Shown here: one piece after another, positions 23,879 through 37,502 of the stretch | Layout: each line of letters starts with the position of its first letter | How positions within the stretch are numbered: position 1 is the first letter of the stretch | Assembly: GCF_003226535.1 (NCBI RefSeq) | Contig: NZ_QKOB01000003.1 | Coordinates: 124,001 to 188,000, forward strand | DNA: 64,000 nucleotides | Direction of reading: 5' to 3' | DNA from: Meiothermus sp. Pnk-1 | Lineage (GTDB): Bacteria > Deinococcota > Deinococci > Deinococcales > Thermaceae | Notes under the pieces: generated by a model | What the model saw: only the letters and a program-made list of their open reading frames with translations | Database searches by the model: none | What the model was told of the DNA's origin: nothing | Translations under genes and position numbers: made by a program

Positions 23879-25116
23879 GGCAAACCAAGCTCCTTCCGAG
23901 CCTTCTCAATCATAGCATGCCCGGTCGGGTCGAAGGCAAACAGCGTACGAGCGGCAAAAGTGTGCGCTGCGAAGCACTCACAGAAGTATTCTTCCCAGTC
24001 ACGCCGTGCCCGCAGGCTGATCGCTGATCCACTCCGATACGCCTCCTGGACCAGGGCGATGAAGCCCTCCCGACCCTTGAGGTCCACGAGCAGGTGGTGG
24101 CCGATCTCGTGAATCAGGGTACGGCGCAGGGCCTCCACCAAAGTTTCTCCGGTCGCTGAGAAGGTCTTGAGGCGGGCCGGACGGAAGTCCTGATTGATCG
24201 TTTGTGCGGGGCGTGCGCTATTGAGCACCAGGTGCTGCTCGTCCTCCAGGTAATACCCCAGAAGCACGTTTTCCCCCTGGCCGGGTAGAGGTTGAATGTC
24301 AAGGACTGCCAGGGGTCGCTTGCGCAGATACTCGCTGAGTCCAGCTTGGGCCAGAGCCCGGTAAACTGCGTTGGTGTCCGCGCTTGAGAGAACGCTTCTG
24401 CCGGCCAAAAACTGTTCCCCTAAGCGAATTTGCTCGGCCCGCATGGAGCCCATCCTATCCTGCTCATACTGAAAGGCCGCCCATAGCTCAGGATCGTAGT
24501 CCGATGCTCTGGGTCGCCATCCTTCCACATCCGGAGGCCTGCCGAAGCCCTCGAGCGGGGGCTGGTCGGGCACGGTCTGGCTGACGCGTCCTCGTGCTTG
24601 CTCCGCCGAGTAGGTCACCAACGCCGTGCGGCAGCGGAAGTGCAGGGGCGGAATATGGTTAGTCCAGAATGGATCATCCGCCGGGCGCACCACCCCGGCG
24701 AGGTTGCGGCAGATGCTGGAGGTGCGGCCATCGAGAACCACCTCGAGGCCCCAGTATGGCCGGGAGTCCCGCAGCTCGTTGGCCGCCCGCCAGCGCCCGG
24801 CCCCGTAGGCCATCTGCAGGTTGGTATCGAAGATGGTCCGCAGGCGGTGGGGGCTCTGCCCTCCCCAGGCCCGGGCTACCTGCTGACTCAGCCTCTCCCG
24901 GAACCTCTCGAAGGTTTCCCCCTCCGCCAGAGCGGCGTCCAGCGCGTTCATGACCTCCTGCACCAGGTCGAGCCGGGCCAAGCCGGCTACGAAGAACGCC
25001 CGCCGGCGGGCGGCGTCGCTCAGGGCACGGAACTCGGGGTCGGTGACGGGGAGCCTCGAGCGGAAGAACTCGAGGGCCGCCTCCGGGTCAACCGCGATGC
25101 TCTCAACCATCCACAT
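23875..25116 (-). CDS. MuF head morphogenesis protein fused to a metallopeptidase-like domain
   Basis: A 413-residue protein. Residues about 1-175 are a Mu gpF/SPP1 gp7-like minor head domain (RLRTIFDTNLQMAYGAGRWR; WGLEVVLDGRTSSICRNLAG; IPPLHFRCRTALVTY). The C-terminal part, beyond about 260, contains HEIGHHLL followed by DWEEYFCECFAAHTF, an HExxH zinc-protease pattern with a downstream Glu. Mu gpF has no such domain. MuF proteins with variable C-terminal effector domains are known as injected toxins; that role here is inference. Confidence 0.8.
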   Translation of the reverse strand: MWMVESIAVDPEAALEFFRSRLPVTDPEFRALSDAARRRAFFVAGLARLDLVQEVMNALDAALAEGETFERFRERLSQQVARAWGGQSPHRLRTIFDTNLQMAYGAGRWRAANELRDSRPYWGLEVVLDGRTSSICRNLAGVVRPADDPFWTNHIPPLHFRCRTALVTYSAEQARGRVSQTVPDQPPLEGFGRPPDVEGWRPRASDYDPELWAAFQYEQDRMGSMRAEQIRLGEQFLAGRSVLSSADTNAVYRALAQAGLSEYLRKRPLAVLDIQPLPGQGENVLLGYYLEDEQHLVLNSARPAQTINQDFRPARLKTFSATGETLVEALRRTLIHEIGHHLLVDLKGREGFIALVQEAYRSGSAISLRARRDWEEYFCECFAAHTFAARTLFAFDPTGHAMIEKARKELGLP

Positions 25117-26671
25117 CGGCGTCTTCTCGCTGGGCTAGCATCCCCGCCAGTTCGGCCAGGGTCACGCCCACCTCCAGCAGACGGCTGAGCTGGGAGACGT
25201 CGAGCTGGGGGAACAGCCGGATGAGGCGCCGCCTGAGGTCGTCGTATCCGTCGGCCTGGCGCACCTGTTCGAGCAGGAGGTCCAGCGGGTCCTTCATGGC
25301 CTCGCTGCCAAGGTTGAGCGCCTGACCTAGGAGCTCGAAGACGTACTGCTGTCCGTTGAGCACTCCACGGCTAGGTCGTGCGGATTCCAGGCTCACGCGG
25401 GTAGCCTCGAGGGGGGTCGGGCGCTGGGCGCCGGGCCGGATCAGGATACGCTCGTTGGCCTGCGGTGCGGGCAGGCCGAACTCCCGCTGCACATAGCTCT
25501 CGGGGATGGGTACGCCCATCTGCTGAAGGAGGTCTAGTGTCTCCGCGCGCTGCTTCTGGTCTTTCTCCTCCTCGAGGATGCCCTGAATCACCGGGGCCAG
25601 CTTTATTCTCTCGATGCCAAAATTGAAGGCGATAAAGGGTTTGGCGAGCTGTTCCCGCAGGGTTTCGCCGAGGGCCAGCGTATCGGCTTCCAGCAGGTCC
25701 ATGCGGGTCTTGAGATGCACCTGTCCGAGGGCCTGGGTGCCGTGCTGGCCTTCGCTCGAGGTGAGGGTCTGTCCCAACACGGCCAGGGTCATCTCGCGGT
25801 TGGCCAGCTCGATCAGCTTTTCATAGACCTCTGGGCCACCCCTTTGCGCAGTCTCGATGATCTCAATCTCGGTATCCTTGCTGATCACTCCGGCAGCGTC
25901 GGTGCCGAGGTTGCGCACGGCGGCCTCCAGGGCATCCCGCTCGTCCTTCCCGGTCGCCGGGTCATACTTGCCCAGTCGATAGGGCTGTCCGTACAGCTCG
26001 CCGTAGGTCAACCAGTCTTTGAGCTCGTAGTGCTTGAAGAGGTACCACCAGGCGGTGGTACGCATCAATCCGGCCCGCGTGGGGGAGCCCGCCCGGGCCC
26101 GGTAGCGGTGCTCGATCACCTGACCGTACTGCGGCAGCATGCCCGTGGGCTCTTCCTGAGTGCGGATCTTAAAGCGCCTGAGGTTGAAGTCGTAGATGAG
26201 ATGCTTAGCCCCAATGTGCTGGAACTGCGTGGGCTGCCACAGCCCGTCTACGCGCTCCCAGACCAACCCCACCATGCTCACGCCCTGCCCCAGGGCATCC
26301 AGCAGGTCCAGCATTAGCCCGCGCCAGGGCATGTCGGTCCACACCTCGCGGAAGGCGTCCGCGTAGCGCCTGGCCTCGCTGCTACTGTCCTTGGGCTCGA
26401 CGCGCCACTCGAGGCCGATGCTGGCCAGCCGGCGATCCTGCATGAGTTTGAGCAGGGTGCCGTCGCGTTCCTCCATCTCCTCAAAAAGTTCAGCTTGGGT
26501 CTCGAGGTAGCCGTCGTCGGCCTCGCGTAGGATCTGGGCCAGGCGCTGCGGGGTCAGGCCCCGCAGCGGGTAGCTGCGCCACCTCGAGTCCAGTCCCAAG
26601 ACCGGCGAGGGGGTCTTGTTGGTAGGGGGGCTGGAACTGATGGGGTTGCCGTACTGGTCGAGGATTGGCAT
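25103..26671 (-). CDS. Portal protein, Mu gp29 family (DUF935)
   Basis: A 522-residue protein with the family features: RGLTPQRLAQILREADDGYL, RDGTLLKLMQDRRLASIGLE, the central LMRTTAWWYLFKHYELKDWL and LTSSEGQHGTQALGQVHLKT. It forms the dodecameric DNA gate of the head. It is the first gene after late cassette 2, and its end overlaps the MuF start by 14 bases. Confidence 0.9.
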   Translation of the reverse strand: MPILDQYGNPISSSPPTNKTPSPVLGLDSRWRSYPLRGLTPQRLAQILREADDGYLETQAELFEEMEERDGTLLKLMQDRRLASIGLEWRVEPKDSSSEARRYADAFREVWTDMPWRGLMLDLLDALGQGVSMVGLVWERVDGLWQPTQFQHIGAKHLIYDFNLRRFKIRTQEEPTGMLPQYGQVIEHRYRARAGSPTRAGLMRTTAWWYLFKHYELKDWLTYGELYGQPYRLGKYDPATGKDERDALEAAVRNLGTDAAGVISKDTEIEIIETAQRGGPEVYEKLIELANREMTLAVLGQTLTSSEGQHGTQALGQVHLKTRMDLLEADTLALGETLREQLAKPFIAFNFGIERIKLAPVIQGILEEEKDQKQRAETLDLLQQMGVPIPESYVQREFGLPAPQANERILIRPGAQRPTPLEATRVSLESARPSRGVLNGQQYVFELLGQALNLGSEAMKDPLDLLLEQVRQADGYDDLRRRLIRLFPQLDVSQLSRLLEVGVTLAELAGMLAQREDADVDG

Positions 26672-26680
26672 AGTCCGCGC

Positions 26681-26744
26681 TCCAAAAAGAAGCAGCCCCC
26701 GAAGGGGCTGCTAGGTTACCGACAGTCTACTTCACTCGTGTGGG
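26681..26744 (-). promoter_or_regulatory. Late leader cassette 2 (before portal)
   Basis: Reading leftward: CCCACAC (26744-26738), 8 bases, TAGACT (26729-26724), GTCGGTA, ACCTAGC, a 9-bp hairpin AGCAGCCCC-TTCG-GGGGCTGCT (26712-26691), then TCTTTTT. TAGACT to the portal start is 53 bases. The -10-like box and hairpin lie between the stop of the upstream gene (26727) and portal. Confidence 0.7.
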
Positions 26745-27185
26745 TTTAGTTGCAGTTCGCCCAGCCTTTTCCAGTTTCGCCCTGAGCCGTTCAATGCGCT
26801 CAGTCCAATCACCATGCCATCGTTGTCGGCGTGCCTCAATGCTGAAACTTAGGGCCTCCTCGAGCTGTCCCTGCTTTTCCAAAACGATCACCAAGCGCTC
26901 AAACCCCGGGTGACGGACGCCCGTCGCGCCACCCCTGCCGTATTTCCTGCGCATCGCCTCACGAACTTGGGGGGCAATTGCTACCATTGAACGCGCGGTC
27001 CCCAGGGCAGCTTCCAGCATCCCTGGCCGGTCACGGTGCTTGTACTGGAGCTCCATAAGGTCCATCAAGGCAAAGTGTCGTTCCAGGACGCCCGAGGCTG
27101 TTTGCGCAGCCCGCTTCGCCAGCTCGAGTTGGCGATCAAGGTCAATGGGATCCACGTTGGTCAGTATATGTCCAACCTGGCTCAC
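26727..27185 (-). CDS. Phage protein of unknown function, helical
   Basis: A 152-residue, Arg- and Glu-rich, largely helical protein (QLELAKRAAQTASGVLERHF; HPGFERLVIVLEKQGQLEEA). The pattern of paired helices recalls TPR-like phage proteins. It lies between terminase and portal, at the end of the block driven by late cassette 1. No function assigned. Confidence 0.5.
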   Translation of the reverse strand: MSQVGHILTNVDPIDLDRQLELAKRAAQTASGVLERHFALMDLMELQYKHRDRPGMLEAALGTARSMVAIAPQVREAMRRKYGRGGATGVRHPGFERLVIVLEKQGQLEEALSFSIEARRQRWHGDWTERIERLRAKLEKAGRTATKPTRVK

Positions 27186-27310
27186 GCTTTCTGTCAGAAC
27201 TCCCCAGGCATTAGGAGCCTTTTTACGGGGCTCCGTGGGCAGGCCGGTCCAACCACCGGCCCCCCGCGTGCCGGGGCATTTGCCGCCCCATCGGCGGGCC
27301 AGCGGGCCGC

Positions 27311-28591
27311 TCAGTACAGCCCCTCGTGGCCACCAAACCGGCCCTTCAAGACCGTGCGATATTCCACCGGCCCCCTCGGGCGGGTCGCCGCGTGCATGGC
27401 CAGCGCCTTAGCCCAGAAGTGGTCGGCGTGGCCCTGCTCGTTGCGCTCGGCATCATAGCGCACGTTGCCCGCACTGGTGACGATGCGCTTTACCGAGTGA
27501 ATGGATTCTCGCAACGATTGGTTGTTGGCCGGAATGCGCACCTTGCGGTCCTCGAAGGCCAGCCGCAGGCTTTGAGCGAGGTCGGCCTTGACCTCGAGGT
27601 TGAACTCCACCGGCTCGACCCTCCAGCCGAACTTGCGCCGGGCCTCCTCCGCCAGCATCATGCCCAGGCCGGTGGCGTCGATCGCGGCGCGGCGGACACG
27701 TGGCAAGTAGCTCAGCAGCACCTCGAGCTGGGTGGCGAAGGGGGTGCTCCGCAGCTCGATGATCTTGCGGCAGTAGGCCACGTCACCCACGATCTCATCA
27801 ATCCAGATCACCGTGAGGTCGCGCCGACGCCCAATGTCCATGCCCAGGTAGGCGCGGTCAGGGTCCCATTCCTCGGCCAGGCAGCCCGCGGATTCAGCGG
27901 CCAGGATCAGGTCGTAGGGGATGAAGGCCGTGCTCTCCTCCACGAACTCCAGGAGATACTCCTGCTGCCAGGCGATGGGATCGGCGATAGCCTCCCGCAG
28001 TTCCTCCGGGTCAATTTGCAGCCCCTGAGCAACCGCGTCGTAGATGGTGACCCGATGGCGGCTCCAGATCTCTCCCCCGCGCTCCCAGAGCTGGAAGAAC
28101 ATGTTTCCCTTGCCGTTGGGCGTGCTCACGATGCGGATTCGGTAGCTGGGATTGCGGGTGATGGTGGGGAACAACGCCGTCCAGATCGCCTTGGAGTCCT
28201 TATGGAAGGCGAACTCGTCCAGGAAGACGTTACCCGAGTAGCCGCGAGCGGTGTCGGGGTTGGCCGGGAGGAAGATGTGCCGCGAGCCGTTGGGGAGGCG
28301 AAGCTGGAGCTGAGTGTACTTCTCCCCGCTATCGGCCAGGAAGTAGTCCTCCATCGCCTCGGCAGCGATGCGGTAGGCTTCGAGGTGGAGCTTGGCCTTC
28401 TCGGCGAGCTCGAGGCTCTGCCGTTCTCCACGGCTGAGATAGATCCACAACGCCCTGCGCTCGAGGGAGTCATCCACCGTCTCGAGCGTCCCCGCGAAGC
28501 TTTTCCCGCTCTGGCGCGACCACATGCCGATCTTGAATCGAGATTTGTCCTCGATCCAGAGCTTCTGGTAGGGCAGAAGAATCCCACTCAT
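27311..28591 (-). CDS. Terminase large subunit (Mu gp28-like)
   Basis: A 426-residue protein. ATPase: Walker A-like SRQSGKS near residue 30 and Walker B NVFLDEFAFH near 125. RNase H-like nuclease: LGMDIGRRRDLTVIW near 250, AAIDATGLGMML near 305 and a terminal DHFWAKALAMH. These are the expected acidic residues. It packages phage DNA from host-integrated copies in headful mode by analogy with Mu. The 125 bases downstream hold two small hairpins but no gene. Confidence 0.9.
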   Translation of the reverse strand: MSGILLPYQKLWIEDKSRFKIGMWSRQSGKSFAGTLETVDDSLERRALWIYLSRGERQSLELAEKAKLHLEAYRIAAEAMEDYFLADSGEKYTQLQLRLPNGSRHIFLPANPDTARGYSGNVFLDEFAFHKDSKAIWTALFPTITRNPSYRIRIVSTPNGKGNMFFQLWERGGEIWSRHRVTIYDAVAQGLQIDPEELREAIADPIAWQQEYLLEFVEESTAFIPYDLILAAESAGCLAEEWDPDRAYLGMDIGRRRDLTVIWIDEIVGDVAYCRKIIELRSTPFATQLEVLLSYLPRVRRAAIDATGLGMMLAEEARRKFGWRVEPVEFNLEVKADLAQSLRLAFEDRKVRIPANNQSLRESIHSVKRIVTSAGNVRYDAERNEQGHADHFWAKALAMHAATRPRGPVEYRTVLKGRFGGHEGLY

Positions 28592-28818
28592 GGCCGCACC
28601 GGGGTGTGGCCTCCTCCCCCCACTTTAGTGGGGGGCAATATAGCCTCCACACTCCCTTTTCTGTAATCAGCCGAGAAGCGTACGTAATCGATGATGAATA
28701 GATCGGCTGGTATGCCCCCACGCGACAGCCACACATACCAGAAGGCGCGACGGAAGGCACGGCCCCTATAGACCTTCAGCTCGATATTGCCGTTAGTGGC
28801 GGTATTGGGGTCCGACAT
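28588..28818 (-). CDS. Small phage protein, possibly beta-sandwich
   Basis: A 76-residue protein whose stop overlaps the terminase start (ATGA). IELKVYRGRAFRRAFWYVWL and DYVRFSADYRKGSVEAILPP loosely resemble the short beta domain of baseplate upper proteins. Function unknown. Confidence 0.45.
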   Translation of the reverse strand: MSDPNTATNGNIELKVYRGRAFRRAFWYVWLSRGGIPADLFIIDYVRFSADYRKGSVEAILPPTKVGGGGHTPVRP

Positions 28819-28823
28819 AGCAC

Positions 28824-29366
28824 TTAGGGGGTGATGCCGTAGAGCTCCTCGCGGATGACCCGAAGCACCTCGGGCGTAATGCCCGACTGCTTAGAGAGCT
28901 TTTCCTCGACTTTCTTGGCCACGTCCTCGGTAAGCAGGCGTTCGGTCTTCTCCAGGCGCAGTGCGACTTCGGCCGAACGCACCGCGAGGTTGAGCGCCTT
29001 GATGGGGTCGAGGTCCTCGAGCTCGGTATCCTCGAGCAGCCGGAGCGCCTTGTGGGCGATGACGTTAACCACGGCGCTGTGCAGGGAGAGCTGCTTGCCG
29101 GTGGCCCTGGAAATGGCGTCCATGACCTGCTGGGTCTCGAGCGCCTGACCCAGGGCAGGCAGCAGGTGGTTGTTCCGATGGCGCGAGAGCCCGCCTACGC
29201 TGATGTCCAGGCCCTCCGTAGCCGCCCACTGCACGATCTCCTCGTATTTGTAGGACATACCGCCCGGCTTGCGCTCCTCGCCCAGCAGCCGGGCGTCGAT
29301 CCGCTCCCGCAGACTGGATTGGCAGATCTTGCAGCGGGTAGAAGTGACATAAATCATCGCAGCCAT
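28824..29366 (-). CDS. Terminase small subunit-like (Mu gp27, DUF3486)
   Basis: About 180 residues. A CKIC pair near the start is followed by YEEIVQWAATEGLDISVGGL and SRHRNNH, the helix-turn-helix of the Mu small terminase family, then a helical C-terminal half. A GGGGG sits before ATG 29366; a second ATG at 29357 overlaps the upstream stop. It lies two genes before the large subunit, as expected. Confidence 0.75.
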   Translation of the reverse strand: MAAMIYVTSTRCKICQSSLRERIDARLLGEERKPGGMSYKYEEIVQWAATEGLDISVGGLSRHRNNHLLPALGQALETQQVMDAISRATGKQLSLHSAVVNVIAHKALRLLEDTELEDLDPIKALNLAVRSAEVALRLEKTERLLTEDVAKKVEEKLSKQSGITPEVLRVIREELYGITP

Positions 29367-29904: not shown

Positions 29905-30162
29905 TTACTTGATCCACCCAGCAACCGTGCTCCTGATGTCGATAATGCCTATCAGCAGGGCCAGCACGAGCACCAGTAGCCTGAAAAACCACTCCGTTTG
30001 CCACCAGCGCAGTGTGGGCTTTTCCTTGGCTTCAATCTTGCGGATGAGCTTGATCGTGAGCAGTTTTTCCCGCAATCGGTCGAGGTGATCCGGGTTAGTA
30101 CCGGGCGACTTTTCCAATTCTGCGAGCATACCCTCAACCAACTCGAGTTCCAGATCATCCAC
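29905..30162 (-). CDS. Small membrane protein, holin candidate
   Basis: An 85-residue protein from GTG 30162 with GGGAGG five bases upstream. An acidic helical N-terminal half precedes one strong membrane helix (FFRLLVLVLALLIGIIDI). First gene after late cassette 1. Holin is a guess from size, position and topology. Confidence 0.5.
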   Translation of the reverse strand: MDDLELELVEGMLAELEKSPGTNPDHLDRLREKLLTIKLIRKIEAKEKPTLRWWQTEWFFRLLVLVLALLIGIIDIRSTVAGWIK

Positions 30163-30252: not shown

Positions 30253-30281
30253 TGACAAATAGCGTGGATCAGGTTGGACAT
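30253..30281 (+). repeat. Internal copy of the prophage-end site
   Basis: TGACAAATAGCGTGGATCA (30253-30271) has the orientation of the right-end sites, and TCAGGTTGGACAT of the second motif overlaps its end at the usual 22-base offset. It lies at the boundary between early and late genes, overlapping the 3' end of the gene at 30269 by a few bases. Confidence 0.75.
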
Positions 30282-30661
30282 GGCCGCAACAACCGCCCCA
30301 GCTTGAGCGCCAGCTCAGCCAGCGACTCGGATACGTTAGCCCGCTCGACGCGACCCCGGTCACGCCGCGCCCGGAACACCGCCCGGTAGCGGGTGGTCGC
30401 CAGGTGCTCCTCCAACTCCTCTCGCTCCCAGGGCTCGAGGTTATCCAGAAAGCGCTCCATGTCCCACCGCCACAGCCGCAGGGTCTCGGCCTGGATCAGG
30501 CCGGGCACCGGGCGCACGTGCACCTCAAGGTAGCTGGCACGGTGAGGATTGTGCCCCCCCAGCACCTTGACCCAGGTCTTGCGCTCGTGCGCCACCATCC
30601 ACAAGGCGTGCATGGCCCACTCGGCCCGCCACATCGCCACCGGGTTCGAGCTCCCCCTCAC
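30269..30661 (-). CDS. Early phage protein, function unknown
   Basis: A 130-residue protein from GTG 30661, overlapping the upstream stop (GTGA). Basic and aromatic N-terminal half (MHALWMVAHERKTWVKVLGG, PHRASYLEVHVRPV) and a helical C-terminal half. Last gene of the early operon. A late-gene activator or antiterminator would be expected near this position, but nothing in the sequence proves it. Confidence 0.5.
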   Translation of the reverse strand: MRGSSNPVAMWRAEWAMHALWMVAHERKTWVKVLGGHNPHRASYLEVHVRPVPGLIQAETLRLWRWDMERFLDNLEPWEREELEEHLATTRYRAVFRARRDRGRVERANVSESLAELALKLGRLLRPCPT

Positions 30662-31446
30662 CGGCGCACCTCCTGCCAGACACGCCCGGTCCACTCCACG
30701 AGGCCCAGGTCGCGCAGCTTGGCCAGCCGCCGATCGGCTGTCTCCTTCGAGCGCCCGATGGCCTCCGCCAGCTCCTTGGCCTCAATGCTGCCCCCTCTGG
30801 CCCGGATCACCTCGAGGGCCTGGGTCAGGTTAGGCGCCAGGGTCAGGCGGGTGGTGGTCTCCTCCACCCGGTGGTGGTGCTCGAGTTGGCTCATGAATCC
30901 GGGGGCAGGATTGACCGGGGTCATGACCTGGGGCGTCACCTCGGTCACTGCTTGGGTCATGGGCATGACCGGGGTAGGTCGTCGGGGTTTCGGTTTTGTA
31001 ACCGGGGTCATGACCTGGGGTGTCGCCTCGGTCACCGCTTGGGACATATGGAGTAGCCCCCCGATGACCTTGCCGATGACCAGCCCGGCCAGGGGAAACG
31101 CGCTCGCGGCCAGTAGGGTCAACCACCACTCGAGCCCCCACAACTCTGAGGGGGCTGCCAGCCACATCGAACGCCAGTTGCCGACGAACACGATCAGTAA
31201 AAACGCGATGTTGCCCCAGAAGGCGTAGCAGGCGACCTCCTGCTTTTGGTAGATGCGGGAAACCATGCCAGTGGACAACACGAAGAGCTCCAATGCCACG
31301 GCAATACTCCAGGCAATGCCGGGCGGCAGGCTGCCGTTGTACTGGGCATAGAACGCGGCGAGGTGCGGGGTGGAAACCACGGCAGCCAGCACGTAGATGC
31401 CCAGCAGGGCGACGATGATCAAGCGGGTATGGTCAAGCCGGGGCAT
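30658..31446 (-). CDS. Membrane-anchored winged-helix regulator (putative)
   Basis: A 262-residue protein. Residues 1-150 hold four membrane helices (LIIVALLGIYVLAAVVS; GIAWSIAVALELFVLSTGMV; AFWGNIAFLLIVFVGNW; LLAASAFPLAGLVIGKVIGG). A Pro/Thr-rich linker carries the repeat QAVTE(A/V)TPQVMTPV twice. The C-terminal 70 residues are a winged-helix domain (IEAKELAEAIGRSKETADRR). The layout resembles DUF2637-type plasmid proteins and ToxR-like factors with inverted order. Unusual for a phage early gene. Confidence 0.65.
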   Translation of the reverse strand: MPRLDHTRLIIVALLGIYVLAAVVSTPHLAAFYAQYNGSLPPGIAWSIAVALELFVLSTGMVSRIYQKQEVACYAFWGNIAFLLIVFVGNWRSMWLAAPSELWGLEWWLTLLAASAFPLAGLVIGKVIGGLLHMSQAVTEATPQVMTPVTKPKPRRPTPVMPMTQAVTEVTPQVMTPVNPAPGFMSQLEHHHRVEETTTRLTLAPNLTQALEVIRARGGSIEAKELAEAIGRSKETADRRLAKLRDLGLVEWTGRVWQEVRR

Positions 31447-31705
31447 CCCATTCCTCCATTGGTGGCACGGGCCTGAGTTCTGGGAAGGCGGCGTTGATGG
31501 CCTGGCGAGCCTCCTCCGCCGTGGGGAAGACGTATTGGGGCACGTGGTAAACGGTGTAGTAGGGCTGCACGTCGTCGCCAAGGCGGGTCATGCAGATGCA
31601 CCACACCAGCCCCACCCAACCACTCTGGCGAGGGTCGTAGGCGACGGATAGGTAGTACTGCTGATCGTTGAGGTAGGGGATGTTATTCCGCTTGATCCTG
31701 ATCAC
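31433..31705 (-). CDS. Early phage protein, function unknown
   Basis: A 90-residue protein from GTG 31705 with AAGGAGAT upstream. Tyr- and Trp-rich (DQQYYLSVAYDPRQSGWVGL), probably a small beta fold. Overlaps both neighbours (by 23 and 14 bases). No family recognised. Confidence 0.5.
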   Translation of the reverse strand: MIRIKRNNIPYLNDQQYYLSVAYDPRQSGWVGLVWCICMTRLGDDVQPYYTVYHVPQYVFPTAEEARQAINAAFPELRPVPPMEEWDAPA

Positions 31706-34338: not shown

Positions 34339-34561
34339 CGCTCTCCCCCCTTGCGAACCCCTCCCATGCCCCCAGCGCCCGGCGGACCGGGTCCCACGCC
34401 GCTACGACCAGCTCGGGGTCGTGGTAGTAGGCGCGGGCCCCGGTGAGGGCGGCCAGGCGCCGGGCCTGGCCCTGGTCGCCCACCGCCGGCCAGTTGACGT
34501 AGAGCGTGCCGGAGGGGGCCAGCACTGCGGCCCTCCCTCCGGGTAGCAGCAGGGCTGTCAC
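34331..34561 (-). CDS. Early phage protein after the MuB-like gene
   Basis: A 76-residue protein from GTG 34561, overlapping the ATPase stop (GTGA). Short alpha/beta protein (AAVLAPSGTLYVNWPAVGDQ; ALTGARAYYHDPELVVAAWD). Function unknown. Confidence 0.45.
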   Translation of the reverse strand: MTALLLPGGRAAVLAPSGTLYVNWPAVGDQGQARRLAALTGARAYYHDPELVVAAWDPVRRALGAWEGFARGESDG

Positions 34562-35409
34562 GTGCGGCCCCCGCTGAGGTTGATGCGTTGGGCCGCTGTG
34601 AGCACGTGGCGCGGAGCGAAATTCTCCCGGCTCAGGCCCCTCTCGCGGTTTTTCGAGATGGCCCGGTCGATCTGGCGCACCAGCCGCAGCACGTCACGCA
34701 TGACACCGCCGGTAAGCTCGTGCATCTTTCTGATGACCTCGGGCTTAAACCCGGCCATTTGCGGCATGCTCAGCAGCTCCTCGAGCTCCACCGGTTTGGC
34801 CTCCGCCACTACGCCGATGCGGCTCTCGATGTCGCGCCAGCGGCGCAGTAGCCGGGCGTAGTCCTCGGTGCAGACCAGGATGAAGGTGCTCCCCGACTCG
34901 TCGGCGAGGTATTTGAGCACCTCTAGGCTCTCCCGCGGCATCCGCTGGGCCTCGTCAATCACGGCCACGATGGGTCGCTTCATGAGCTGCTGGTGGATGA
35001 TCCCGATCAGCGTCCGGAAGTTAGCCACCTTAGTGATGAAGAGGTTGGTGGCCAGCTCATCCAACAGGGCCTGGGGACCGAAGTCGGGCGGCGCGTGAAT
35101 GTAGGCGGTATTGAGGTCGGGTTTGTCCTCCCTCAGTTTCTGGATGAAGCGGCGGCTCGTGATGGTTTTGGAGCAGCCTGCGGGCCCGGTCACCAGCGCA
35201 AAGGGAAACTGGTCCTCTACGGCGTCACGCAAGCGCCCGGCAATGATCGCCGTGGCCTTGGTCTGCACGTAGCCCTGGGTGGGGTCCTCGAGGGAGAAGC
35301 CGAGCTCCTCGCTGAGCGCCTCATCGATGAACCGGGAGAGCTCCTCAGGGTCCTTGAACAACAGCTGCACCGGAGTCTCGGTCTGTCGTGTATCCTTGTC
35401 CTGATCCAT
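34558..35409 (-). CDS. Transposition AAA+ ATPase, MuB/TnsC-like
   Basis: A 283-residue protein from ATG 35409 with AAGGAGACTGT upstream. Walker A VTGPAGCSKT near residue 75, Walker B IVAVIDEAQRMPRE near 145, sensor region FILVCTEDYARLLRRW, and a helical lid ending LRLVRQIDRAISKNRERGLS. In Mu the partner ATPase coats target DNA and activates the transposase. It directly follows the transposase gene, as in Mu and Tn7-like elements. Confidence 0.9.
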   Translation of the reverse strand: MDQDKDTRQTETPVQLLFKDPEELSRFIDEALSEELGFSLEDPTQGYVQTKATAIIAGRLRDAVEDQFPFALVTGPAGCSKTITSRRFIQKLREDKPDLNTAYIHAPPDFGPQALLDELATNLFITKVANFRTLIGIIHQQLMKRPIVAVIDEAQRMPRESLEVLKYLADESGSTFILVCTEDYARLLRRWRDIESRIGVVAEAKPVELEELLSMPQMAGFKPEVIRKMHELTGGVMRDVLRLVRQIDRAISKNRERGLSRENFAPRHVLTAAQRINLSGGRT

Positions 35410-35456: not shown

Positions 35457-37502
35457 CTACAGACCGTTGGGGCTTAACGGGTCGTTGCCGAGGTCGTACT
35501 CCTCGTCGAGCACGAATCCCTCGGCCAGGAAATCCTCGAGTGCGCTCTGCATCTCGGCGCGGCTCTGCGCCTCGGGGTCGGCCTCGAGCCGGGCCTCCGG
35601 GGCGGCGAGATGGAAGGTCTGGGGTTCGGGTTTGGCGGCCAGGCGCTCGAGCACCCGGTCGTGCCGGTAGGTCGGGTCGGTGAACTGCCGCCGCACCTCC
35701 TCGGCGGCCTCGAGGATGCTCTTGACCTGGGCTCGGATCCGGCGCCGCATCTCCCGCGCCTCGTCGCTGCCCGCGGCGAAGTCCATCGGAACCAGGGGGC
35801 CCAACACCTGCAGCCGGTCGCCCACCGGCAGCGCGACCACCAGATTCTGGGCGGGCATCAGGTCGTTGACCAACAGCACCACCTCGTCCCCCTGGTGGGC
35901 GATGAGGCTGCCGTCGGCCAGGCCCCAGGTGCGGCCCTCGTAAACCACGGTGCCGTTGCCGCGCACCTTGCGGCGCTCCTGGCGGGAGAACACCAGGCTC
36001 AGGTCGCCGAAGTTGAAGCGGGCCCGGCTCGCAGGCGGCGCGGTCTCGAGGAACAGCTCCTGGTATGATTTGCCGCCCTTGCGGATCTCGCGGTGGTAAT
36101 CCATCGTGAGCCATAGCAGGGCGGCGTTCTTGAACTCCTCTTCGGTGAGGAGTCGATCATTGGTATCGCGGGGATCTGGCCCCCCTTCGGCAATCCAGCG
36201 GCGGGTGTTGTGCAGCAGCCGGGCGATCTGCTGGTGGTCGCGCTCGGTGGTGTCCGGGCCGGCGTAGCCCGGAAGACCGCGCTCAAACGTGTTGTGGAAG
36301 ACCCCGAAAAACCGCTCGATATTGCCGCGGCTGTGGCTGACGCGGGGCAGGGAGTGCTCGAGGCGAATGCCCAGGGTGCGGGCGATCTGCGCCGACTTCT
36401 CCGAGCGGTAAACCTTGCTGTTATCCCAATAGATGACTTCGGGCCGGCCCCAGATGGGCCAGAGCTGGGCCCAGCGGTCGGGCTTCTCCAGCAGGCCGAG
36501 CATCAGCATCCGGTCAGTGGGAGCCTGCCCCTCCTCCCGGCTGAAGACGAAGGCCGGGACCGCGCCGCTGAACACGTCGATCGCGGCGTGGATGCGTAGC
36601 CTCAAAATCTTGTCGCTGTAGGGGTCGTACACGAAGGTGTCGCAGCGGGTCATGTCGACCATCCATAGCTCGTTGGCTCGCTCGGCCAGCACCTCCCCCA
36701 CCCACACCCGGCCAAACTCCTTTTTGCCCCGGTCGTCCATCAGCGCCACCCGGAACGCCGGGATGCGCTCCATCTGCCGCCGGACGCGCTGGATGGTGCC
36801 GGGGCTGAGGGTGTTGGTGGCGCGGGCCCGGGGATAGGGCTTGTATCGCAGGAGGGCCGGGTCGTTGAGTTCGATGATGCGGCGTATCCGCCGGGCGCTG
36901 TAGCGCGGGTGCATGATCCAGAGGGTCATCACCAGCCGCAGCAGTTCCTCCGGCAGGCGGGGAACCCCGCTATCGGTGCGGCGCTTGCGGGCCAGGCCGC
37001 TCTCCGGGTCACGGGCCTGGGCCAGCTTGCCCAGCAGGCGCCAGATGTGACGCTCGGATACCCCCCTACGGGCAGCCTCCTCGCGCACGCGCTGGGCGCG
37101 GGCCCCGTAGCCGAGTTGCTGCAGTTCGGCGTGCAGGGGCTGGAGCCACTCGAGCATCTGCTGAGCCCGCTGGCGCTGGTGTGTGGGGATGGCCTCGGGG
37201 TTGCGGAGGCTAAGCACGGTCGGCGCGAGGCCCGGGGTGACTTGGGCACCCCGCGAAGAGCCCCCCTCCTCGTCTGTCGGGTTGAATAAATGTCCCCACC
37301 GGTGCTCAGCTTGAACATCCTTGTCCAGGGCTCGAGCCAGGCTATCCAGGTCCACCACCCAGTACTTCGCCGCTCTCCCCTGGGGACGCACTTTCCGACG
37401 CTCCTCCCAAATCACACCGGGAACGCCCCTATAGCGCCGAATGGTTTTATCGGAAACCCCAAGCAGCCTCGCTGCTTCCACGACCGTAACGAATTGGGTC
37501 AT
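35457..37502 (-). CDS. DDE transposase, MuA-like
   Basis: A 681-residue protein. N-terminus: helix-turn-helix (VVEAARLLGVSDKTIRRYRG), then two more DNA-binding segments (about 120-250). Catalytic rve domain: Asp283 in LWMVDMTRCD, Asp360 in EVIYWDNSKV and Glu396 in SRGNIERFFG, a DD35E spacing. A beta-barrel and basic tail follow (about 500-640), as in MuA. It should cut and join the prophage ends with 5-bp duplication, which matches CATAC. Its start overlaps the Cro-like stop (ATGA). Confidence 0.95.
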   Translation of the reverse strand: MTQFVTVVEAARLLGVSDKTIRRYRGVPGVIWEERRKVRPQGRAAKYWVVDLDSLARALDKDVQAEHRWGHLFNPTDEEGGSSRGAQVTPGLAPTVLSLRNPEAIPTHQRQRAQQMLEWLQPLHAELQQLGYGARAQRVREEAARRGVSERHIWRLLGKLAQARDPESGLARKRRTDSGVPRLPEELLRLVMTLWIMHPRYSARRIRRIIELNDPALLRYKPYPRARATNTLSPGTIQRVRRQMERIPAFRVALMDDRGKKEFGRVWVGEVLAERANELWMVDMTRCDTFVYDPYSDKILRLRIHAAIDVFSGAVPAFVFSREEGQAPTDRMLMLGLLEKPDRWAQLWPIWGRPEVIYWDNSKVYRSEKSAQIARTLGIRLEHSLPRVSHSRGNIERFFGVFHNTFERGLPGYAGPDTTERDHQQIARLLHNTRRWIAEGGPDPRDTNDRLLTEEEFKNAALLWLTMDYHREIRKGGKSYQELFLETAPPASRARFNFGDLSLVFSRQERRKVRGNGTVVYEGRTWGLADGSLIAHQGDEVVLLVNDLMPAQNLVVALPVGDRLQVLGPLVPMDFAAGSDEAREMRRRIRAQVKSILEAAEEVRRQFTDPTYRHDRVLERLAAKPEPQTFHLAAPEARLEADPEAQSRAEMQSALEDFLAEGFVLDEEYDLGNDPLSPNGL

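Follow-up and report, generated by a model that had tools for sequence, protein, structure and literature searches.

Exchange of predicted winged-helix heads on a constant four-helix membrane anchor in Mu-like phages of Thermaceae

Several described proteins share features with the product of the gene analysed here, which we predict to consist of four transmembrane helices, a linker and a winged helix. SpdB2 of the Streptomyces plasmid pSVH1 is, in the accessible part of its report, an integral membrane protein that binds DNA non-specifically and contacts TraB (PMC4170104). It parallels our protein in being a membrane protein with DNA binding, a likeness drawn from its description alone. To our knowledge, SpdB2 has no winged helix. 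The phi29 protein p16.7 is a phage membrane protein proposed, in the portion of the source available, to recruit phage DNA to the membrane (PMC4974454), and a reference given in that portion has it bind single-stranded DNA. This makes p16.7 akin to the tether proposed below, also a phage membrane protein that would bring DNA to the membrane. Fold and layout of p16.7 are other than an order of four helices, linker and winged helix. Regulators of the ToxR/CadC type share with our protein a membrane-fixed winged helix; they carry it as an N-terminal head, with one helix and a periplasmic sensor, whereas here the four helices come first and there is no periplasmic domain, so that the layout is not that of ToxR/CadC. 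Closest in layout are the DUF2637 proteins (PF10935), which occur on many actinobacterial plasmids and in phages and, like our protein, have a similar four-helix anchor, a long linker and carriage on plasmids or phages, as well as a C-terminal helix-turn-helix (HTH) in those that we scanned or read. They are barely named in the literature searched, which covered a minority of subscription papers and gave no function for them; with the same scope, nothing relevant was found on membrane-anchored winged helices of phages. We regard the layout as already known but unexplained, and the anchor family described here as a variant of it.

The window, that is, the whole stretch of DNA analysed, comprises 64,000 nt of the 3.5-Mb genome of Meiothermus sp. 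Pnk-1. In it, the gene runs from 31446 to 30658 on the minus strand and encodes 262 residues from an ATG with GGAGG directly upstream; the preceding gene, as called (31433-31705), overlaps it. We rejected a chance open reading frame on the strength of a codon-usage score of 91 log-odds units (from a gene caller trained on the collected loci), an alignment of 20 full-length rows (A1) in which the window protein is 25-31% identical to the 19 others, and matches to HTH_IclR among its members.

AlphaFold2, given the 20 aligned rows, places helices at residues 4-36, 42-65, 72-97 and 107-139. Models, charges and conservation delimit a membrane anchor of residues 1-140 (31027..31446, minus), followed by a mostly disordered linker of about residues 141-203 (30838..31026, minus) and a winged-helix head of about residues 204-262, which with the stop codon spans 30658..30837 (minus). 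The whole-protein model has a pLDDT of 70.4 and a pTM of 0.33, with disorder in the linker up to about residue 200; the anchor modelled alone from 22 rows reaches 89.4 and 0.79, and the winged helix, at residues 204-260, a pLDDT of about 93. These predictions bear out, for both parts, the four-helix membrane protein with a winged-helix domain that had been proposed from the letters of the DNA (hereafter the original prediction), and the TPQVMTPV repeat that it saw in the linker corresponds to a direct repeat of 47 nt whose copies are 91% identical and lie 87 nt apart (30914-30960 and 31001-31047); within the linker Tandem Repeats Finder reported none, the copies being spaced. Five residues (S25, H28, E53, N90 and K126) are invariant across 22 anchors. 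The mean numbers of lysine plus arginine in 20 members (1.3 at the N-terminus, 0.7, 1.7 and 1.1 in loops 1 to 3, and 2.2 on the C-terminal side) favour a topology with both termini inside, which would make the head cytoplasmic.

As for the head, all Pfam HTH matches of the window protein itself lie below the curated cut-offs (the best at 23.6 against 27 bits); HTH_IclR is matched by 18 of the 20 members at E up to 1 (best 1.7e-12), and the cut-offs are passed in relatives, by L041 for HTH_5 (38.4 against 22) and by L050 for HTH_IclR (29 against 22). A Foldseek search of the PDB with the whole model returned nothing at E up to 0.001 (best 0.037); among the matches listed, the alignments fell on the head or nearly so, and VIA-align of these chains found winged helices (Z 11.2, rmsd 2.8, 66 residues aligned). 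By predicted fold, with Pfam support from relatives, the head is a winged-helix domain of the IclR/MarR/ArsR-like kind. The best PDB match of the anchor (Z 8.1, rmsd 4.7, 106 aligned) lies below the level given for helical bundles, and we therefore claim no solved relative for it.

The host element is a Mu-like transposable phage. Genes for MuA, MuB, Gp27, terminase and Portal_Mu are present in this order around the anchor gene and in the same direction: the MuA-like transposase (35457-37502, minus) and the MuB-like ATPase (34558-35409, minus) lie upstream, and Mu Gp27, terminase and the Mu portal (25103..29366, minus) downstream. Next downstream is c7 (30269..30661, minus), which as called shares 4 nt with the anchor gene and may in fact start further upstream; confined to Mu-like phages among the examined loci, c7 comes in several divergent types and has no convincing match in Pfam or PHROG. 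It is followed by a conserved neighbour, c6 (29905..30162, minus), a small protein with, by eye, one C-terminal membrane helix. The prophage (14600-47000) ends just before putative mraZ and mraW genes of a division cluster (47132 onward), named by eye from the called proteins.

The whole-protein A1 profile matches winged helices in 105 of the 111 genomes of the phylum, and we therefore counted with a profile of the anchor only. At E up to 0.01, permuted forms included, the anchor family is present in 30 of the 111 genomes, all of which fall among the 50 of the window's own family. A protein search matched 23 of 101 genomes, including a false match in G090; L021, a histidine kinase by sequence, was dropped as a false match. 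Relatives were recovered by alignment-based and whole-genome searches. Single-sequence tblastn against phages and plasmids gave short matches to the head and no full relatives, and none were found by single-sequence searches of IMG/VR and GTDB contigs or of phages with the relatives' proteins. A search of IMG/VR yielded 13 loci. Of 13 loci with relatives in named genomes, 10 belong to Thermus, Meiothermus and Calidithermus; the other three, from bins of hot springs or other origin that bear the names Bacterium HR39, Hydrogenophilus and Anaerolineae, may reflect true spread or wrong binning.

We collected 25 loci, 20 of which make up A1 (left out were L034, which has the same protein as L033, the permuted or cut L048-L050, and the split copy L051); the Pfam names of neighbouring genes rest on representatives. 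Fifteen loci are Mu-like prophages in which the anchor gene is followed by c7, c6, c5, Gp27, terminase and portal, in some of them with small open reading frames interspersed. Five are of a type IV secretion (T4SS) type, with genes for a VirD4-like protein and a lytic transglycosylase and, in four of the five, also a VirB4-like gene in the stretch examined. At two loci the anchor gene follows a ParB_N gene, and three are other (permuted or cut). Portal_Mu was found at 19 places in 16 of the 50 family genomes. At all 15 of the strongest places the anchor gene lies 3.7-4.6 kb away; no anchor gene was found near the four divergent Portal_Mu genes, one of which is close to a contig end. As all 15 close Portal_Mu genes are accompanied, the anchor gene is a core gene of one Mu-like Thermaceae phage lineage. 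This qualifies the view that such proteins are rare in phages, the gene being standard in this lineage and in P74-26/P23-45-type phages; of the ‘phage early operon’ assigned to it, the phage part holds and ‘early’ is read from position only. One prophage (G042:C10:49684-50501; L020, L026) has its anchor gene split across two reading frames. For the T4SS-type loci we also weighed the transjugation element ICETh1, and did not equate the two because its donor ATPase, TdtA, is grouped with FtsK-HerA homologues in the part of the source available (PMC5365140).

How close is the family to DUF2637? At E up to 1, PF10935 matches neither the window protein nor anything else in its genome, and it is absent among the 25 of 73 families listed for 20 members. 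The permuted relatives described below score 11.7-15.1 bits against a curated cut-off of 22.8, which the anchor family does not reach. By predicted fold the likeness is closer: in a Foldseek search with the anchor alone, two DUF2637 models stand at ranks 5 and 9 of 445 viral matches at E up to 10 (TM-scores 0.71, E 3.0e-3, and 0.69, E 9.7e-3), so that the four-helix N-terminal fold is shared, as are the linker and C-terminal HTH on a mobile element; the DUF2637-like layout foreseen in the original prediction is supported to this extent. An hhalign comparison with DUF2637 scored 25.05 (E 0.0016, 108 columns, probability 16%), against 22.0 for the best of 120 shuffled controls and 10.0 and 10.9 for two reversed ones; a first attempt had given E 0.0079 and a probability of 5%. 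As this comparison is suggestive and hmmsearch between the DUF2637 set and the anchor family was not significant in either direction, we call the family DUF2637-like and not DUF2637, a link proposed from fold and a weak profile match.

The two DUF2637 heads with a Pfam match are HTH_23, unlike the window head. Some DUF2637 genes adjoin partition or transfer genes, as anchor-family genes do. In 6 of 22 examples, which are mutually related and in several cases have flanks of only 0.9 kb, the two genes directly upstream encode a ParA/AAA ATPase and a small protein; no ParA-type pair lies directly upstream in the other 16. Two of the 22 have ESX genes as neighbours, and one of the two adjoins a T4SS coupling protein as well. 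A single DUF2637 protein matched 193 plasmid records. A DUF2637 match above the cut-off in the genome of a relative (G072) shares 64% identity with a protein from a plasmid of Microbacterium; it may stem from contamination or transfer and was not used as evidence for the family; its sequence served as query to the DUF2637 examples and is a row in alignments A2 and A4, and is outside the 20-sequence set used for hhalign and hmmsearch.

In the same anchor-only search of viral models, three proteins match at E up to 0.001, namely an ‘excisionase’ of a Rhodococcus phage (TM-score 0.74), A7XXH4 of phage P74-26 (0.71) and a protein of an uncultured phage (0.74). We take A7XXH4, from its length and layout, to be P74-26 gp12 (P74p12, 200 residues), which belongs to the anchor family (E 9.3e-14 by hmmsearch of a set of 1364). 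The gp12 proteins of P74-26/P23-45 resemble the window protein in anchor, linker and DNA-binding head; they differ in that the head is HTH_17 (MerR/excisionase-like) and that the gene lies beside that for DNA polymerase, in P74-26 between it and the ribonucleotide reductase gene, and the phage is lytic. P74p12 was matched by 11 Thermus phage records, some of them duplicates of one phage; in TSP4 and phiFa the match is good in the anchor part only, and the heads weakly match HTH_17. The accessible part of a paper on P23-45 does not mention gp12 (PMC10770324). The anchor family ties DUF2637 proteins to these Thermus phages, which can be grown in the laboratory.

An observation that goes beyond the original prediction is that, in two groups of phages, the anchor stays constant while linker and head are replaced together, like a cassette. 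L028 and L036 align collinearly at 96.3% identity over the 8.2 kb upstream of the gene (14.5 kb in an extended comparison) and its first 363 nt; they are unalike from there to nt 720 or 762, after which collinearity resumes at 87.6%. In this pair the anchors are 94% identical and the heads (last 62 residues) 48%. In L069 and L068 the anchors are 100% and the heads 31% identical, and over both groups phages with 90-100% identical anchors bear heads that are 31-48% identical. The 24 phage-context sequences form 276 pairs, which are not independent; in 40 the anchors reach at least 90% identity, and in 17 of these 40 the heads are below 50%.

The flanks were compared by counting sites that follow head type. 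In the second set (seven sequences, ungapped two-letter columns, with L071, of the second head type, excluded) 167 sites separate the head types exactly; of these, 162 lie at +200 to +1400, which covers the anchor end, the head and c7, and 5 elsewhere in 12.9 kb. In the first set (four sequences) head type is matched upstream by 27 sites, where the two other splits have 199 and 46, and downstream by 184 sites, where they have 0 and 13. The downstream excess is weak evidence of a head-linked flank, because G028 and G014 of this set are 98% identical over 22 kb downstream. No operator that co-varies with the head was found upstream in either set; one could possibly lie downstream (in the first set), within the exchanged segment itself or in an indel. 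Across head types c7 is 97% identical in the first set and differs in the second, and L072 has a third c7 type, yet a head as in L068. About 6.2 kb upstream, prophages that are otherwise near-identical also show exchange of the N-terminal HTH of the MuA-like transposase (some 30 codons) and of the repressor cassette next to it, as seen for L028, L029, L036 and L032 (G020, G047, G028 and G014); G020 and G028 have a common repressor and different MuA HTHs.

The original prediction spoke of a sensor or a tether; of the two, context favours the tether. We infer that the protein is located in the membrane and binds DNA, which is very probable, and that it acts as a tether, to which we give a probability of about 0.5. 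Judging from model and charges, the four helices would anchor it in the inner membrane, its N- and C-termini both cytoplasmic, and the flexible linker would let the winged-helix head reach DNA. The protein would then keep DNA at this membrane for a process that takes place there: in phages replication or packaging, in T4SS-type elements transfer and in plasmids segregation. The argument for such holding is that these contexts have in common the replication, packaging, transfer or segregation of element DNA while the anchor stays constant: it is common to elements that move or partition DNA, whereas the heads vary (IclR/ArsR/MarR-like, HTH_17, HTH_23). A tether of the element's own DNA, on the other hand, might need a site matched to the head, and none is seen upstream; moreover, transcription regulation is the usual role of such winged helices.

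The main rival is accordingly a one-component membrane regulator, whose helices would sense the state of membrane or envelope (infection stage, lysis timing) and whose head would switch phage or host promoters. The head resembles IclR, MarR and ArsR regulators, the five invariant anchor residues could bind a signal, and in the Mu-like phages the gene sits between those for transposition and those for packaging, a region that in phage Mu contains the middle regulator and the lysis genes. We nevertheless consider this reading rather unlikely, given that heads swap without matching change in much of the flanking sequence, both upstream in the first set and outside +200 to +1400 in the second, and that an anchor beside T4SS, ParB and polymerase genes fits it less directly; a linked operator among the 184 downstream sites of the first set is conceivable. 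The position between transposition and packaging genes, together with the four helices, would also suit a lysis or holin-type protein, which is very improbable in view of the conserved C-terminal winged helix and of homologues in T4SS-type loci and polymerase clusters. The exchange itself would suit a factor in competition or exclusion, with an anchored head that recognises the incoming DNA of rivals at the membrane and diversifies by exchange; heads replaced like cassettes on a constant anchor in two phage groups, and no co-varying own site in much of the flank examined, agree with it. Against this, the gene is also present in transfer-type loci, and the repressor and the N-terminal HTH of MuA are exchanged too, so that head exchange is not special; we judge such a role improbable.

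Returning to the tether, we tentatively suggest a wider possibility, namely a general device of mobile elements, in which plasmids, conjugative-type elements and phages, both transposable and other tailed ones, would share a constant four-helix anchor with exchangeable heads. The head would pick the DNA held at the membrane, with a target possibly outside its own operon, and the order of helices would be open to permutation, apparently once with flipped orientation and the head still inside. The natural head exchanges offer ready matched pairs for identifying the bound DNA and the reason for holding it at the membrane. Permuted anchors, in which the fourth-helix motif is placed first, occur at L048:9042-9860, L050:8843-9649 and L057:1390-2061; the charges of two sequences suggest that they may be flipped in the membrane with the head still inside. 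Among DUF2637 proteins of mycobacterial plasmids, two (L122:4752-5477 and L126:1713-2531) have, by eye, the helix order 3-4-1-2 and lie beside ESX genes.
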